The notes beneath the pieces were generated by a model. It did not search any database. It had not been told where the DNA came from and saw only the letters and a list, made by a program, of their open reading frames with translations. This document shows positions 6,299 through 63,955 of a stretch of 64,000 bases of DNA, in pieces. Source of the stretch: Rhyacophila brunnea (lineage: Eukaryota; Arthropoda; Insecta; Trichoptera; Rhyacophilidae); NCBI GenBank assembly GCA_022495005.1, contig JAGYXB010000693.1, positions 903,478 to 967,477 of the forward strand. Direction: 5' to 3'. A program made the position numbers and the translations under genes. Each line of letters starts with the position of its first letter. Positions within the stretch are counted from its first letter, which is position 1.

Positions 6299-6345
6299 AG
6301 TTAGGTTAGGTTAAGTTAGGTTTGGTTAGGCTAGGTTAGGTTAGG
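6299..6345 (+). repeat. short interstitial TTAGG-type array
   Basis: About nine units of the pentamer GGTTA with point variants. It sits inside a dispersed repeat: sequence just downstream recurs next to the similar array at 18359-18378, in reverse, so it is not by itself evidence of a telomere. Confidence 0.75.
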
Positions 6346-6640
6346 TTTTTATTCTTGAATTCATGAATTTTGCCAAAATCAGTTTTGAAAATTGGCGCGG
6401 TTCCCGCTTGATTTCCTGTAAACCGACTTGTACATAAAACACTTACAAATACGTACCTAATAAAATCTCCCTAAATACATGGGAAAGATAATAGAAAATA
6501 GGTATTAAATTAGAAATACTGAACAACGCGTATTTTTTCATCTCGGTGATATAGAGATGACCTTATAGTATGGTCATATCTTTTCGATAAGAAAGCTCAC
6601 GGCGAACTGTGATACGTGTAATTTAAATGTAACCAAATAT
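6346..6640 (-). repeat. fragment of the long-inverted-repeat family seen at 18008-21277
   Basis: Sequence around 6350-6430 (the stretch including GAATTTTGCCAAAATC) matches 18330-18430 in reverse, and 6593-6640 contains GAAAGCTCACGGCGAACTGT, the subterminal block of both arms of 18008-21277. It ends in AATGTAACC like the family terminus. Confidence 0.55.
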
Positions 6641-55811: not shown

Positions 55812-56288
55812 TGTTATGGATTTAATATAATTAAACACTAATAATTTATTTTATGTTTATTTATTCAATTCACAACACAAATCACACGTACAGTTATAAT
55901 AATTTTCACTTACATTACTTACAAGTCAGAATACGGAGAAGTCTGGATAGACCTGGACAGTCGGAACTTAGGATTATTACTGGCCTCTGAGGTGTCGATA
56001 CTTGTGAGTATCTAGCAATTTATAATGGAATGAGACAAAGGAAAGTTTTGGACGTTGCACTTATTATGCAGGGATGTATGTTTATGATAGTAAGTAATTT
56101 AGCTAGAAATTTAGTATTGTTTGTTTACATTACAATGGAAAGCACTTAGTTAGTTTAAATAATGTCGCGACGAGTAAATACGATAAGTATTGATAATTAT
56201 ACATCAGGGCTTCTCAATATTATACAGGGGTAACAAAGAATAATATAACAAGGAATAAAATATAGTATAAAAGGGCGTATACATAACA
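55812..56288 (-). repeat. 3' LTR of errantivirus
   Basis: 477 bp with 7-bp inverted termini TGTTATG / CATAACA. On minus it contains a TATA-like TATACTATATTTTA near its 5' end and several AATAAA-type signals near its 3' end, consistent with promoter and polyadenylation roles. Confidence 0.95.
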
Positions 56289-56298
56289 ACTCCCTCCT
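56289..56298 (-). promoter_or_regulatory. polypurine tract (plus-strand DNA priming)
   Basis: AGGAGGGAGT on the minus strand directly abuts the start of the 3' LTR, as expected for the primer left by RNase H. Confidence 0.88.
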
Positions 56299-56351
56299 AA
56301 AAGAATAAACTTATGGTTGACAATTTTGCCATGAGTTTATGTTAGATAATA

Positions 56352-58263
56352 TTAATTAATTTTATTTATTAATCTTGCGCTTCTCCTAACAGTTGATGTG
56401 GATGGGTGAACATTTACTTCATTTGGTTGAGTTAGGTTTAAACTTGTTATTTCACTTAGTTCAACATCATCTGGAGGATTTTGATTATTGAAGCAGACAT
56501 TGAATATATTATTGACAGGTCTATTGGTGTCATCGGCACCTTCTATAGATAGTATTTTAGAGCATTTCTTATTACATAAATTATACAGTTTATACAAGAG
56601 GTAAATAACAATACATATAGAGATAATATACATGAAATATTGGTATGTATTCATTTGTTGTTTGAATTTAGGTTGATCTAACAGATTGTCTATATTATCT
56701 GAGATAGAGTTTATTTTGTGTGAGATTAAGTGCTAATCCTGCGTTAGCATAGTGTAATGGCTGTAAGGGAGGAAAAGGGATTGTTTTATTTATTTCTTCT
56801 TTACAACAATCATCATCTAGTATATTTATATTAGGAATAAAAGCATTATAATTAGAATATGTTTGTACAATTTCAGTGGTTAACATGACATTTTTTGTAT
56901 AACCTTTACATCCAGGTTTCAACGATAGTATTCCTACATTATACAAAGTTACATCGGTTATTTTAGAGTTACAACTTAAAGTAATTGTAGATGGTTCTGA
57001 GAAGACATATACCCATTGGTTATTTGTTGATAGTTTATACCAAATGTCTAATTTTCAAAAGTTTGTTGAACTATGCAAGATTTAGGTATTATATTGGAAT
57101 TTATTAACTCTGTTTCGCAAATAGGTCTGGAATTGCTAGTATGTATTACATTCATTTGTTTACAAATAAAATTTTGATTAGATAATTCATAACAATTTTC
57201 TAGTGTTTGTAATAGAGTATATTGAATTTTTGTTGTGGAGTAAGCTAGGTATTTTTGAGATGGATGAACAGATATGAAACCATTTGGAGTGTAAACAGGT
57301 AAAGAAATTAAATGATATAAGTCATAGACATTGTTATTAGTGTATGGTATAGAAATTTTGTAGATTATGTTTTTATTGATATAATATAATTTTATATTAA
57401 TAATGGTTAATAGATAGTGAATGTTTTCGATATCTAATGACACAGGGTAGCTAAAACCTTCTGGTAAAAGCGATTGAGTTTTACGTAGTTCTTCTAGTAA
57501 TTGATTTGGGGAGATAATAGATGGATGGATTTGATTTGATCTAGCAAAAAGGATAGATGATATAATGGTATTCAATTCGATTTCCAATTCGTTAATAAAA
57601 AATGTTAATGAGGTATAGTGTGATAAAACTAATTCTATTGTTTTCATTTCATCTTGAGTTGATTGAATAGTATGTATGTGTTTGTTAAAATTTCGTATGT
57701 TAGCATTGAATATTTTTTCATTATCATTAAGATTAGAAATAGTTTGATTAAAATTATTGATAGTGGTTGTTATAACTTGAGTTTGATCTTTAAGCAAATG
57801 CAAGATTTCGATATCTTCTTTAGATATTTTTTTTATAGCTTCATCATAGTAACTGGCATCTTGAGAATCTAACGTTCCAAAGAGAGTTTTACTAATGCTA
57901 CCAATGACGTTTATGAGTCCGCGTTTTGATCGCGTGTGGTTCTGAGAATGTCCTACCAATTGAGATATAGTATTTTCCAGTTTGATTAGAACAGGAATTT
58001 TATTTTTTAAGTATTCTAGTTTAGAAGAGCAAATATTATTTTCGGTTTTTCTAGATATGAAATGACAAATGTGAGACGTTTTGATATAGATCTGTTCAGC
58101 TAGGTTGATTTTATTATTTAAAAAGGTTATGTTGTAATGTGTGATGAGCTTCCAGCTGGAGTCGTAGAATGTAAGTTTTCCCAAATTATCGTAGAGAAGA
58201 CCAGGAGATTTGTTGATATTTTGGTTGTCGTAATCTAATGCGTATGTGTTTACTGTGATGGAT
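56352..58263 (-). pseudogene. env: errantivirus env (fusion glycoprotein), frame broken twice
   Basis: Related to baculovirus F-type / errantiviral Env, which mediates membrane fusion. The first open part (to 57048) has an SU-like region, a furin-type site RSKR (residues 85-88 of the 58184 frame), and directly after it a fusion-peptide-like GLINVIGSISKTLFGTLDSQ, then a coiled-coil-like stretch. The second part (57051-56695) carries conserved cysteines (DDCCKEE) and the third (56708-56352) a membrane anchor, ISICIVIYLLYKLY, and a cytoplasmic tail. The parts are in different frames, with shifts at short A runs near 57052 and 56710. There is no ATG at the start: the frame opens at 58286 and a TTTCAG acceptor at 58264-58269 suggests a spliced mRNA. 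The 5' end overlaps the end of pol. Confidence 0.88.
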
Positions 58264-61200
58264 CTGAAACAGCATGTTTCACTCGGTTAGTATGTACCTT
58301 AATTAATTTATTTTTTATCTTAATCGTAACATTTAGAGGACCATTGACCTTTATGATTTCGTAAGGTCCTTGGAAATTAGGGGACAGTTTTTTAGATTTA
58401 TTTAATTTAGAAGCATTATTCGTAAGATATATTTTATCGCCAATTTCGAATGTTCGTAGGGTTTTGTCTTTATTATGCCTAATTTGTGTTTTTTCTTTTT
58501 CTCTTATTAAATTTTTTCTTGCTATTTCATGTGATTTTGTAAGTTTGAGTTTAAGATTGTCTAAAAATGAATCGTATGTGTACTTAAATTCGGATGTTTT
58601 AATAGCTGTTGGTAACTTAGGTTGATTTCCATAAACAAGTTCAAATGGTGTAAATTTTGTAGCAGTATGTGGAGTAGTGTTGTAACTGAACATAGCAAAG
58701 GGTAACCATTCATCCCAATCAGTCTGGCTAGGAGAGATATAGTGTTTTAGATAATCAGCTAAAGTAGCATGACTGCGCTCTAAAGAACCGTTGCTTTGAG
58801 GAGTATATGCGCTTGTTTGTATTTGTTCTATTTTAAAAAGTTTGGCTACTTCCTTAAGAATATTAGAGGTAAAATCCTTTCCTTGATCTGTAAGTATTTT
58901 TTCTGGAATTCCAAATTGACAAATAAACTTTGAAGTCAATTGAGTTGCAATAGTAACGGCTTCATGATTAGGAATAGGATAACATTGAGAATATTTGGTT
59001 AAGTCATCTTGAAGAGTTAATATGTACTTATTACCATTTTCTGTTAAAGGAAGGGGACCTACTATATCTAAAGCAATACGTTCGAAAGGTTTTTGGCTAG
59101 TTGTAGTTATTTCTATCGGTTGTTTAAGATTTTGACGAGATATTTTATTTTTCTGGCAAGATTCGCATTGTTTAATGTATGTTTTAATATCTTTTTGCAT
59201 ATTGGTCCATTTATATTTTAGTTTTACACGATTTAAAGTTCTATGATATCCTGAATGTCCGCTAAGAGGAGAGTCATGATATTCCTTTAATATTGAGGGT
59301 ATTTCATCATGCTTAGGGTTAATTATTTTGTTATTACATATCGTGATATCTATATTTACATTATGGAAAATATACTGAATAATTTTTTTAATTTTTTCCC
59401 AATTAAGATTATCTAAACCGCACCCAAGTTGTGGAAAAGAGATACATGGTTCGTTATTATTTATTAGGATAGTTTTAAGATTAGAGATTGCTTGAAAAAT
59501 AGAAATATAACTTGGTTTTTCCCAAAAATTTTGTTTCGTAATTAAATGGTAAATGTTGTTTTTAGATACTATTGATTTGAGTACATCACCTATTTGAGAG
59601 TGTGTATCTAACAATTCATCGTAATTATTGATCATGGTACTAATTTCGAGAGCAAGACCTTTGGACATAGACTTATCATTAGAGATACAGTGTGCGATGG
59701 ATTGCTTTTGATTAAGAATTGATTCATCTATTTCAATTAAATTAGTATTAAAAGATTCATTTTGTTTTTCAAGAAAGTCATTGTATGATTGAATACTAGT
59801 GGAGGTAGAAGGGTTATTTATTAAGATTACACCTTGATTTTCGATTCGTGATAGAGCATCAGCATTAGAGTTCAGTTTACCTGGTTTATAAATAATTTCA
59901 TAGTCATACTCTTCTAATTTTAATCTCCATCTTACGAGTCTAGAACCTGGGTCTTTTACGTTAAAAAGCCAAGAAAGGGGGCGATGATCAGTAAATATTT
60001 TAAATTTTCTACCGTATAGATAAGGTCTAAAGTGTTTACATGCCCATACGATCGCTAATAGTTCTCGTTCTGTCGTGGAGTAATTAGATTCAGCTCTATT
60101 CAATGTACGAGATGCATATGCAATTGGTAAATCTTTTGCTAATGATCCTTGAGATAATACAGCACCTATAGCAAAGTTAGAAGCATCCGTTGTGAGGTTA
60201 AACGGTTGCGTGAAATCGGGATATTGAAGTATAGGTTCTGTTGTTAATTTGGTTTTTAATGATTGGAAAGCATCTTCCTGCAGCTTAGTCCAATTGAAAA
60301 CTACATCTTTTTTCAACAAACATGTGAGATTTTGAGAGATTTTAGAAAAATTAGGAATGAACTTCCTATAATATCCTACCATTCCGAGGAAAGATTTGAT
60401 ATCTTTGGGATTCTTAGGTCTAGGGAAATTGGTAACAGAATTGATTTTTGAGGGATTTGGTTTAACTCCTTCTTCGGAAATAATATGACCTAAGTATGCG
60501 ACTTCGTGACGCATAAATTCGCATTTGTCTGGCTGTAGCTTTAGGTTGTGTTGATCGAGACGCTGAAATATCTCGCGCAGTTTTCGAGAATGAGATTCGA
60601 TTGAATCTGCATATATAACTATATCGTCTAAATACACAAAGCATTTAATTCCTTGTAAACCGGATAAAACATTGTTCATTAGCCTTTGGAAACAAGATGG
60701 TGCATTTTTTAAACCAAAACTCATTTTTGAAAATTGATAATGTCCTTGATTTGTGGAGAAAGCGGTTTTATCTGCGTCTTCAGGTGACATAGGGATTTGA
60801 TGAAAACCGGAGGCTAAGTCAAGCGTTGTAAAATATTTTGAATGACCTAATTGATCTAAGATGTCTGAAATATTAGGTATTGGATAGCTATCATTGATAG
60901 TGACGTCATTGAGTTTTCTATAATCTATTACTACCCTCCATTTCTTTTTACCAGAGGCATCGTCCTTTTTAGGCACGACCCAAAGTGGTGAGGACCATGG
61001 TGAAGTAGAATGCTCTATTATATTTTGAGAAAGCATTTTATCTATTTGGTCTTGGACTTCAATTTTATGTACTTCTGGATACCTATATGATTTAGTGTAT
61101 ATTGGAACTTGAGATGTAACAGGTATCTTATGATGAGTTGAGTTGGTATGGGTTAATAGATCACCATCTAAATGAAATATATTATTATACTCGTGGCATA

Positions 61201-62023
61201 ATGATATAATTGAATCAGCTTCCTCATTGTTCAGATGAGATAGCCGTAATTCTTTCTCAACCCGTTGATTGCGAGAGGAATCTTTACTAGATGTGTTTGT
61301 AAAAAATAGAAAACTTTCATGCTCGTCAAATGGTTCAAGAGTTATTTCGTTCGATAAAATATTAACTGACTTTTCACTATTATTAAGAATAGTTGCATAG
61401 ACTTTATTTCCTGGACGTACTGTAGTAAGAGCTCGTGATAGATATACGTCTGGAAGGATTTGGACATCTGGTATTATACCATGTTTGATTTCTGGATTTT
61501 GGACAATTAATTCTATAAGGGTTTCGGATCTAGGATTAAGAGAAAAGATAGGATTAGTATTATTATTAAAAATAGGAATGATTTCGTTGTGGATGATCAA
61601 CGTATTCGTTTCATAATCGATTTTCGCGTGGTTATTTAGGAAAAAATCATGACCTAATAGTCCGTCTAATGGAACATTGGTGACATCATTTGGAATCATA
61701 TGGAAAGTATGCTCTAATTGCTTATATTTCAATGGAAATAACAAATTAACTATGCCAAGAGTTTTCACAGGATTTGGAGAGTTATCGATACCTTTAAGTG
61801 TGATTATTTCGGTTTCATTGACCAATTCTTCCTCATTAAGGGAATTCATCTTTACTAATGAAATATCTGCACCAGTATCAAGCAATAGCCTAAGGGATTT
61901 CCTTATTATACTATCATATGGTAATTCCACATATGCCGTAATAGGTTCTAGTGAGAATATTCTGCCTGAATGTTTCGCACGTTCCTGGAATTGGCAGGAT
62001 TCCGGGAGTGCTGGGAGTTTAAA
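58250..62023 (-). CDS. pol: Pol polyprotein: protease, RT, RNase H, macro domain, integrase
   Basis: Made as a -1 frameshift extension of Gag; the frame opens at 62023 and no ATG is needed (the conventional numbering below starts at the GTG at 61930, 1226 residues). Protease: LLLDTGADISLV, Asp18. RT: VVIDYRKLNDVTIND, catalytic Asp371 and YLDD (433-436). RNase H: TDAS Asp582, TERE Glu623, TDHR Asp648. Macro domain: ~727-867. Integrase: zinc-binding H885, H892, C922, C925; core Asp955, Asp1015, Glu1051 (35 residues between the last two, the D,D-35-E pattern); GPY/F-like module GPY at 1188-1190. All catalytic residues are present and the frame is uninterrupted, so the protein looks functional. 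Ends at TAA 58250-58252, overlapping env. Confidence 0.95.
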   Translation of the reverse strand, partial: FKLPALPESCQFQERAKHSGRIFSLEPITAYVELPYDSIIRKSLRLLLDTGADISLVKMNSLNEEELVNETEIITLKGIDNSPNPVKTLGIVNLLFPLKYKQLEHTFHMIPNDVTNVPLDGLLGHDFFLNNHAKIDYETNTLIIHNEIIPIFNNNTNPIFSLNPRSETLIELIVQNPEIKHGIIPDVQILPDVYLSRALTTVRPGNKVYATILNNSEKSVNILSNEITLEPFDEHESFLFFTNTSSKDSSRNQRVEKELRLSHLNNEEADSIISLCHEYNNIFHLDGDLLTHTNSTHHKIPVTSQVPIYTKSYRYPEVHKIEVQDQIDKMLSQNIIEHSTSPWSSPLWVVPKKDDASGKKKWRVVIDYRKLNDVTINDSYPIPNISDILDQLGHSKYFTTLDLASGFHQIPMSPEDADKTAFSTNQGHYQFSKMSFGLKNAPSCFQRLMNNVLSGLQGIKCFVYLDDIVIYADSIESHSRKLREIFQRLDQHNLKLQPDKCEFMRHEVAYLGHIISEEGVKPNPSKINSVTNFPRPKNPKDIKSFLGMVGYYRKFIPNFSKISQNLTCLLKKDVVFNWTKLQEDAFQSLKTKLTTEPILQYPDFTQPFNLTTDASNFAIGAVLSQGSLAKDLPIAYASRTLNRAESNYSTTERELLAIVWACKHFRPYLYGRKFKIFTDHRPLSWLFNVKDPGSRLVRWRLKLEEYDYEIIYKPGKLNSNADALSRIENQGVILINNPSTSTSIQSYNDFLEKQNESFNTNLIEIDESILNQKQSIAHCISNDKSMSKGLALEISTMINNYDELLDTHSQIGDVLKSIVSKNNIYHLITKQNFWEKPSYISIFQAISNLKTILINNNEPCISFPQLGCGLDNLNWEKIKKIIQYIFHNVNIDITICNNKIINPKHDEIPSILKEYHDSPLSGHSGYHRTLNRVKLKYKWTNMQKDIKTYIKQCESCQKNKISRQNLKQPIEITTTSQKPFERIALDIVGPLPLTENGNKYILTLQDDLTKYSQCYPIPNHEAVTIATQLTSKFICQFGIPEKILTDQGKDFTSNILKEVAKLFKIEQIQTSAYTPQSNGSLERSHATLADYLKHYISPSQTDWDEWLPFAMFSYNTTPHTATKFTPFELVYGNQPKLPTAIKTSEFKYTYDSFLDNLKLKLTKSHEIARKNLIREKEKTQIRHNKDKTLRTFEIGDKIYLTNNASKLNKSKKLSPNFQGPYEIIKVNGPLNVTIKIKNKLIKVHTNRVKHAVSDPSQ
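59330..59752 (-). other. macro domain (TARG1/OARD1-like ADP-ribose hydrolase) embedded in Pol
   Basis: Pol residues ~727-867. Recognisable blocks in order: SIAHCISNDKSMSKGLALEI (744-763; the nucleotide-loop region), QIGDVLKSIV, IYHLITKQNFWEKPSY (793-808) and SFPQLGCGLDNLNWEKI (831-847), ending in a strand like NIDITIC. This order and wording match the ALC1/TARG1 macro subclass, whose members remove ADP-ribose from glutamate. The residues equivalent to the catalytic Lys and Asp of that enzyme are present (K799 in LITK, D840 in GCGLD). The domain lies between RNase H and integrase, in frame and with the same AT-rich codon use as the rest of pol, so it was not acquired yesterday. Activity and purpose are inference; removal of host-attached ADP-ribose during the replication cycle is the obvious hypothesis. 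Confidence 0.88.
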
Positions 62024-62928
62024 TTATTTTGAGGATTATTCTGTGTATTGTGTGGAGATTGACGATTTTGAAACTGACTTCGCGGGGTTTGAGATGTTTG
62101 ACCGTTATGACTGTTCTGAACGTTCGGAGAAAAGTTTCGCGAATTTTGATTTTTATTATTGAATTGGCGTTTTCTACACTCTTCTAATATGTGACCTGAT
62201 TTTTTACAATATCTACAGAATTTTACATTATTTGCGTAATTACGAGGTGTGCTGTTGTCAGCTATAAATTGATTAATGTTATGTTCCCGTTTTATTTGAG
62301 AATTTCTAAAAGGATTTACGTTGGGCTGTCTAGAATGATAGTTATTGTTTCTAGAATTATTAATGTTCATTTCCTTAATGGCACTTAATACTTTTTCCTC
62401 TTCTATCGCTATATTTGTAGCTTCAACTAAAGTCTTTGGCTTAGAAAGTCTGACCGCCATTGATATTTGTGTATTTGCACCTAGAATAAATGTATTTAAT
62501 GCGCTATCTTCTATTTGTTTAATTCGACCTTTCAACTCATTATCATCACTAGTTGAGAATCGCGTTGCGCCTATCAAATTATTAGTACATGCTTCTACTC
62601 GTTGAATGAAATTAATTATAGGTTCATTATAATTTTGTTTACAATTTCTTAACTCTAATTCTAATTGTGAGGTATGTTTGTTGTCACCGTATGTAGATAT
62701 TAAAAATGATTTGAATTCTGAGTATGTTTCGAATGCAAAGTTAGCAATAGTATATTTGGCTTTACCTTCTATTCTATGAATCATGTATTTTAATAATGTA
62801 TTTTTTAATGGTTCGGAACATAATTCAAATGCAGAGTCGCAATCTTTTAAAAATGGATAAAGATTTTTTCTTTCTCCGTCAAAAGTTGAAATGAATTTCA
62901 TGAGAGTGTCAATGGTAAGTGTAGACAT
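61948..62928 (-). CDS. gag: Gag polyprotein
   Basis: 326 residues from ATG 62926-62928. The N-terminal two thirds are a helical capsid-like region of Ty3/gypsy Gag (for example FISTFDGERKNLYPFLKDCD, and FIQRVEACTNNL). The C terminus is basic and Asn/Gln/Ser-rich with one CCHC zinc knuckle, C238-x2-C241-x4-H246-x4-C251, for RNA binding. Ends at TAG 61948-61950. The last 76 nt overlap the pol frame and contain the frameshift signal. No internal stop; looks functional. Confidence 0.93.
   Translation of the reverse strand: MSTLTIDTLMKFISTFDGERKNLYPFLKDCDSAFELCSEPLKNTLLKYMIHRIEGKAKYTIANFAFETYSEFKSFLISTYGDNKHTSQLELELRNCKQNYNEPIINFIQRVEACTNNLIGATRFSTSDDNELKGRIKQIEDSALNTFILGANTQISMAVRLSKPKTLVEATNIAIEEEKVLSAIKEMNINNSRNNNYHSRQPNVNPFRNSQIKREHNINQFIADNSTPRNYANNVKFCRYCKKSGHILEECRKRQFNNKNQNSRNFSPNVQNSHNGQTSQTPRSQFQNRQSPHNTQNNPQNNLNSQHSRNPANSRNVRNIQAEYSH
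61983..62023 (-). promoter_or_regulatory. -1 ribosomal frameshift signal (gag-pol)
   Basis: Slippery heptamer TTTAAAC at 62023-62017, read T TTA AAC in the gag frame (Leu303-Asn304). After a 9-nt spacer comes a stem-loop: TCCCGGAAT (62007-61999) pairs with ATTCCAGGA (61991-61983), eight pairs and one mismatch, loop CCTGCCA. The -1 frame has a stop immediately upstream (62024-62026) and is then open through pol. A pseudoknot is possible but not shown. Confidence 0.88.
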
Positions 62929-63453
62929 TTTATGTGTGTGTTTTCACTGTGTAACGAGAGTAAGATTATGACAAAAATAATACTTATAATAATAACAGAT
63001 ATTATTACTTACAAACAGATTATAAGGAAAAGATTCATTGTAGATCTTGTTGAGTAGGTGATTCCGGACTTGGAGGTTTGAGCTTTCTTGGAGATTAGGA
63101 GACACAAGAGCTAGAGACACAGACACTTGGAGATTTGGAGACACGAGAGATTGAGACACAGACACTTGGAGATTTGGAGACACGAGAGATTGAGACACAG
63201 ACACTTGGAGATTTGGAGACTTGGAAGCTTCTTGGAGACTTGCAGTTTTATTTATAAATGAAGAAGACTTGAAAACTTGAGTAATGTGTAAGATTAATTT
63301 CCGTTCGATTCTAAATCGATGTACTTTTAAAATTTATTATTATGTATAGTTACGTGTTTTATTTTTATTTTTAATGGATTCTTGCTTGGTTTTAAAGAAT
63401 AAAATTCACCGTTTAGTAATATTAATTAATACACTTCACGTTATTTAAGCTAA
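62929..63453 (-). other. 5' leader of the errantivirus with 39-bp tandem repeats
   Basis: Untranslated region between primer-binding site and gag. About three and a half copies of a 39-bp unit (GAGACACAGACACTTGGAGA within each) span about 63084-63230. The open frame over the repeats (62944-63204) is an artefact of a period divisible by three. A packaging or internal ribosome entry role is possible but not shown. Confidence 0.8.
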
Positions 63454-63471
63454 ATCCCACGACTGACACCA
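63454..63471 (-). promoter_or_regulatory. primer-binding site (tRNA primer, Leu-like)
   Basis: On minus: TGGTGTCAGTCGTGGGAT, starting 7 nt after the 5' LTR. TGG is the complement of CCA-3', and the following bases match the acceptor and T-arm end of a leucine-type tRNA better than the Lys- or Ser-type primers of classical gypsy and 17.6 elements. The tRNA assignment is from memory of tRNA ends. Confidence 0.75.
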
Positions 63472-63478
63472 AATTTTA

Positions 63479-63955
63479 TGTTATGGATTTAATATAATTA
63501 AACACTAATAATTTATTTTATGTTTATTTATTCAATTCACAACACAAATCACACGTACAGTTATAATAATTTTCACTTACATTACTTACAAGTCAGAATA
63601 CGGAGAAGTCTGGATAGACCTGGACAGTCGGAACTTAGGATTATTACTGGCCTCTGAGGTGTCGATACTTGTGAGTATCTAGCAATTTATAATGGAATGA
63701 GACAAAGGAAAGTTTTGGACGTTGCACTTATTATGCAGGGATGTATGTTTATGATAGTAAGTAATTTAGCTAGAAATTTAGTATTGTTTGTTTACATTAC
63801 AATGGAAAGCACTTAGTTAGTTTAAATAATGTCGCGACGAGTAAATACGATAAGTATTGATAATTATACATCAGGGCTTCTCAATATTATACAGGGGTAA
63901 CAAAGAATAATATAACAAGGAATAAAATATAGTATAAAAGGGCGTATACATAACA
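63479..63955 (-). repeat. 5' LTR of errantivirus
   Basis: 477 bp, apparently identical to 55812-56288 by direct reading. Drives transcription of the element on the minus strand. Confidence 0.95.

Follow-up and report, generated by a model that had tools for sequence, protein, structure and literature searches.

Element at the right end of the window

The window analysed here is a 64,000-nucleotide stretch of the genome of the trichopteran Rhyacophila brunnea (contig JAGYXB010000693.1, positions 903,478 to 967,477) and forms the end of contig C1777. At its right end lies a minus-strand, env-bearing Ty3-type element with long terminal repeats (LTRs), whose Pol polyprotein, judged from homology and a predicted structure, includes a macro domain of the TARG1 (ALC1-like) class between RNase H and integrase. 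Such a domain had been proposed at this place in an initial annotation of the window, and the homology, the predicted fold and the recurrence of the junction in sibling copies bear the proposal out. The domain is homologous to TARG1 both in direct alignment (E 4e-20; about 30% identity with the human protein) and in a profile search (E 2e-38), and the suggested structure prediction gave a macro fold closest to TARG1. Lys799 and Asp840, which the annotation had assigned to the catalytic positions of TARG1, align with those positions (Table 1). The HCIS-D and GCGLD motifs are present as in TARG1; conservation of these motifs was assessed with the window left out of the alignment rows.

The two LTRs, each 477 bp long from TG to CA, show no difference across 478 positions; the window copy is thus very young, as had been supposed. 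Pfam matches to reverse transcriptase (RT), RNase H and integrase follow the Ty3-type order in pol, and the protease match is weak (RVP, E 0.016, below the cut-off). The gag and open pol frames overlap by 76 nt in a -1 arrangement. Errantiviruses are Ty3-type elements with an F-type env, and their target-site duplication is 4 bp. The element resembles Errantivirus in its LTRs, gag-pol-env layout, -1 gag-pol arrangement and Baculo_F env, and differs in the added macro domain. As far as layout and env type go, the errantivirus label of the initial annotation therefore fits. In the single copy inspected, the flanks show no matching 4-bp duplication, the contig ending 45 bases past the 5' LTR.

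Table 1. Features of the LTR element (window coordinates)
Feature	Position	Strand	Remarks
LTR element	55812-63955	minus	right end of window
3' LTR	55812..56288	minus	477 bp TG to CA; exact repeat
env open reading frame (ORF), F-type	57048..58184	minus	Pfam Baculo_F 1.8e-36
pol ORF	58250..61930	minus	1226 codons from first GTG; open frame up to 62023
Integrase: H2C2 zinc domain, catalytic core, SH3-like C-terminus	58253..59329	minus	Integrase_H2C2 4.1e-21, rve 2.6e-12, SH3_Tf2-1 1.3e-06 (the last slightly under its Pfam cut-off)
TARG1-type macro domain (predicted)	59330..59752	minus	Pol residues 727-867
Asp840 codon	59411..59413	minus	aligned with catalytic residue 125 of TARG1
Lys799 codon	59534..59536	minus	aligned with catalytic Lys84 of TARG1
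Linker, 36 codons	59753..59860	minus	from end of RT-RNase H piece to macro domain
RT and RNase H part of Pol (query piece)	59861..61033	minus	Pfam RVT_1 1.3e-42, RT_RNaseH 3.4e-41
gag ORF	61948..62928	minus	326 aa; Retrotrans_gag 4.8e-4, Ty3_capsid 1.3e-3, both below Pfam cut-offs
5' LTR	63479..63955	minus	same sequence as 3' LTR

The env ORF spans only positions 40-406 of the 609 in the Baculo_F profile. A 39-bp tandem repeat (3.4 copies, 63087-63220) occupies the leader between the 5' LTR and gag; tandem repeats are also mentioned for the leader of Tirant in passages of PMC5408687. Degenerate AACCT/GTTAG repeats adjoin the 5' LTR at the contig end (63959-64000) and recur at 6300-6347.

Copies and families in the source genome

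The source genome (1.087 Gb, 2118 contigs) contains at least 151 matches to the domain, with 150 of 200 candidates scored. The window belongs to family A, which has at least 24 full-length matches (99-100% identity), none with an internal stop, and the segment has the same length in all 24 loci. Family B comprises at least 36 matches (76-80%; one with a stop), family C at least 8 (49-51%) and family D at least 5 (41-45%), each accompanied, in family D, by another match at a distance of about 0.6 kb. Family G, on contig C480, matches at 51%, and lower-identity or partial matches are also among those listed. Stretches were fetched from the genome in sets of 30, 20 and 12. RT-RNase H, macro domain and integrase were found in order by tblastn in 28 of the 38 stretches L073-L110, the RT-RNase H match covering only the RT side in three of them (L086, L088, L100). 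Two stretches (L090, L108) lack an RT-RNase H match, L110 stops at a contig end, and L097 is a host gene. An apparent internal deletion running from within the macro domain into integrase was seen in L102-L106 and L109; the many similar partial matches suggest an amplified non-autonomous derivative.

Family D carries two tandem macro domains, D1 and D2. Despite large divergence, A, B, C, G and D1 all retain the catalytic Lys and Asp; at residue 125, E91 (family E) has Asn and family F has Ser. In two domain trees D2 clusters with E (99/94 and 99/96) rather than with D1, a pattern compatible with an ancient tandem duplication after which one copy or the other was lost. Derivation of the D tandem by joining an E-type macro-integrase part was considered and is unsupported: the D integrase is 51-54% identical to that of E versus 59% to that of A. 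The branching order among families is poorly resolved.

Elements without the domain were sought with the RT of P0004, a Ty3-type Pol described below, which gave at least 106 matches in the genome (105 of 889 candidates scored); 13 stretches were chosen and fetched. Four of these (L111-L114; RT 66-72% identical to the window), one of them broken part-way (L114), have an E-type segment. In the other nine (L115-L123; RT 39-46%), RNase H passes straight to integrase, and none of 13 macro queries matched there at E <= 0.1. The seven no-macro rows included in the RT tree form one group (96/95), and the approximately unbiased test does not reject joining the 11 macro rows in a single clade (p value, p-AU, 0.62). 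In this sample, which is no census, the domain appears to mark one lineage of the genome.

Selection on the domain

Ratios of non-synonymous to synonymous substitution (dN/dS) were estimated by the Nei-Gojobori method. Between families A and B, dN/dS is 0.065 (0.023-0.134) for the macro domain, 0.03 for RT-RNase H and 0.04-0.05 for integrase; for the linker it is 0.31 (0.076-0.876), an interval that overlaps that of the macro domain, so that this contrast is suggestive only. Between E91 and E99, which carry a degenerate form, the macro domain gives 0.073 (0.033-0.142), RT-RNase H 0.07, integrase 0.07 and the linker 0.07 (0.004-0.287). In macro domain plus linker, the 24 family A copies differ by 7 non-synonymous and 6 synonymous variants and contain no stop, where about 4 to 1 is expected without selection. 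The corresponding counts, 6 to 2 in B and 10 to 5 in C (6 copies each), are too few to tell. For the family pairs in which it can be measured, the domain is under purifying selection; the claim of the initial annotation that it is maintained by selection thus agrees with the genomic copies.

Origin and other TARG1-like domains

TARG1-like domains were also found at other places in two Ty3-type Pols: between protease and RT in P0003 (residues 154-281 of 1506) and after integrase in P0004 (residues 1058-1182 of 1452; Pfam Macro 1.7e-7). Domains located between RNase H and integrase cluster together in the domain trees (90/91; 85/82 in the second tree), joined by the P0003 domain (99/98, 99/97) and not by that of P0004, but the data do not reject a clade that unites every element domain (p-AU 0.41). 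RT identity to the window is 39% for P0003 and 52% for P0004, the reverse of the domain relationship. These data would be compatible both with independent entries and with a single entry that was followed by transfers. Given the moderately supported grouping of the domains, the families that still carry the domain probably inherited it from their common ancestor.

The proposal that the element had captured a host hydrolase fared less well. Host TARG1-like genes form a clade apart from the element domains (100/100), and a constraint holding the two together is rejected only at the margin (p-AU 0.04, or 0.06 when fewer host rows are used), so that capture from the TARG1 of this host is unsupported. 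The host rows consisted of single exons and of two domains from an intronless copy, and no row is known as the TARG1 of another arthropod; a profile search listed the best 120 of 3372 entries, of which the named ones were mostly from vertebrates. An earlier tree without the sibling families had placed the window and P0003 beside viral-contig rows, a position lost once the siblings were included. A tblastn search of IMG/VR with the macro, integrase and RT pieces returned no relative. A profile scan of the same database found 48 loci with TARG1-like genes, none of which matched the RT or integrase pieces of P0003 and P0004 by tblastn at E 1e-3. When the macro region of P0004 was searched against proteins, only P0004 itself was recovered.

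TARG1-like genes of the host make up a small expanded set (C2055, C608, C1726, C1096). Among seven host exons fetched, the GLD motif is kept in one, on C1096 (intact GSGLD); the others have altered active sites. On C899 a 567-aa ORF (L097:1824-3527) encodes three tandem TARG1-like domains and is nearly identical to three exons that follow one another in the same order within about 9.6 kb of C2055 (203222-212788); this ORF has the appearance of an intronless retrocopy derived from a host gene with three domains. Another residue takes the place of the active-site Asp in the domains of this ORF and the C2055 exons.

Discussion

The macro domain described here shares with TARG1/OARD1 (C6orf130), an animal ALC1-like hydrolase, its predicted fold, length, catalytic Lys and Asp, and both motifs, and differs in residing within a retroelement Pol polyprotein. 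Retroelements are known to carry captured enzymes. In some lentiviruses, for example, Pol includes a dUTPase. Parts of PMC2774666 mention dUTPases in betaretroviruses and fungal chromoviruses; enzyme and substrate differ from those considered here. A closer precedent is found in ray-finned fish, where epsilon-like endogenous retroviruses have macro domains as additional ORFs, according to a passage of PMC4977317 citing Basta et al. 2009. As far as that description allows comparison, these too are retrovirus-like elements that gained a macro domain, whereas the window domain lies inside a Ty3-type Pol. Among the papers listed by a literature search, outside which most subscription papers and bioRxiv preprints fall, none was seen to describe a macro domain inside a Ty3-type Pol, and word look-ups in available text of PMC2774666, PMC12992720, PMC5408687 and PMC2577118 found nothing on macro domains in Ty3-type elements. 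Macro-domain capture by retrovirus-like elements is thus known from fish; what seems new is the element class, the position, and the tandem and the decayed, constrained forms. The fish precedent, like these forms and the other positions in Ty3-type Pols, goes beyond the initial annotation.

Taken as a whole, our reading is that the domain is an ancestral, selected part of Pol, a hydrolase aiding integration, with degenerate copies repurposed; we hold it with moderate confidence. The following proposal for hydrolysis, delivery and substrate builds on the identity of the domain, its place in Pol and its constraint. The domain quite likely works as a mono-ADP-ribosylhydrolase, because the catalytic pair is kept in A, B, C, G and D1. 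According to parts of PMC8053099 and PMC7050489, the substrates of TARG1 are ADP-ribose on Asp/Glu of proteins as well as DNA and RNA whose 5' or 3' phosphate ends are ADP-ribosylated, and PARP1-3 can modify such DNA ends in vitro. Having free linear DNA ends, a reverse-transcribing element could thus plausibly make use of such an enzyme. The domain, released with or fused to RT or integrase, would be carried in the particle alongside the cDNA, where it may remove ADP-ribose placed by host PARP enzymes on linear viral DNA ends or on integration-complex proteins, and so clear the way for integration and end repair. This substrate class is put forward tentatively. The duplicated copy in D, E and F, which has lost most binding signatures yet is constrained (as measured in E), is probably now a binding or structural part of Pol.

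Several observations weigh against this reading. The sole domain of families E and F lacks the HCIS-D and GCGLD motifs, and several of these copies have long open frames, which indicates that hydrolysis is not needed by every member of the lineage. dS is high for A versus B (1.84) and saturated in most other pairs, leaving the A-B and E91-E99 ratios as the informative ones, and within-family variant counts are too small alone to show selection. The window segment itself has no match to Pfam Macro (PF01661) at E <= 1.

The hydrolase might instead mainly undo host antiviral ADP-ribosylation in the cytoplasm, a role that has been proposed for the macro domains of RNA viruses, and not serve integration. 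Action against PARP-based defence and help in integration-linked repair had both been raised in the initial annotation. We regard this as a strong rival, if on the unlikely side. Viral macro domains counter host innate responses, according to parts of PMC7232374. Among the closest viral fold matches are arthropod RNA viruses: BFVD predicts TARG1-like domains in Kadipiro virus VP8 and in several thrips-associated (virga-, negev- and flavi-like) RNA viruses. These domains, known here from predicted structures, share the TARG1-like fold of the window domain; unlike the window element, the viruses do not integrate. Their occurrence suggests that arthropod viruses acquired TARG1-like domains repeatedly.

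Somewhat less probable still, the domain could serve Pol chiefly for binding or as a spacer, for example by tethering integrase to ADP-ribosylated chromatin, with catalysis incidental. In favour of this, the degenerate E domain is constrained as strongly as RT and integrase, and both forms are kept in family D. However, a spacer would not need the two catalytic residues that A, B, C, G and D1 retain over large divergence.

A recent, functionless one-off insertion of host sequence into one copy would agree with the youth of the window copy, but it is very improbable, being ruled out by the sibling families: the domain sits at the same junction in divergent families and has at least 24 near-identical matches, and dN/dS between families is far below 1. 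Chance resemblance or an unrelated insert, for which the missing Pfam match might speak, has a negligible probability in view of the TARG1 homology and of Pfam Macro matches in 7 of 9 family rows at E <= 1 (best 3.6e-7). Standard Pfam annotation can thus miss the domain, as in the window's own family.

If our reading of an integration-aiding hydrolase holds, these elements would represent a natural, selected fusion of an ADP-ribosylhydrolase with the machinery of reverse transcription and integration. A single genome offers built-in comparisons among elements with the eraser, with a decayed form, with both and with none, so that one could test whether retroelements are limited when viral DNA ends or integration complexes become ADP-ribosylated. 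We see about an even chance that this lineage made a TARG1-type eraser constitutive in Pol, then duplicated it and sorted the copies, and that the domains at three places in Pol, probably reflecting several entries, mark ADP-ribosylation as a recurrent constraint on animal retroelements. In sum, the findings suggest that ADP-ribose signalling matters to the copying and insertion of such elements.
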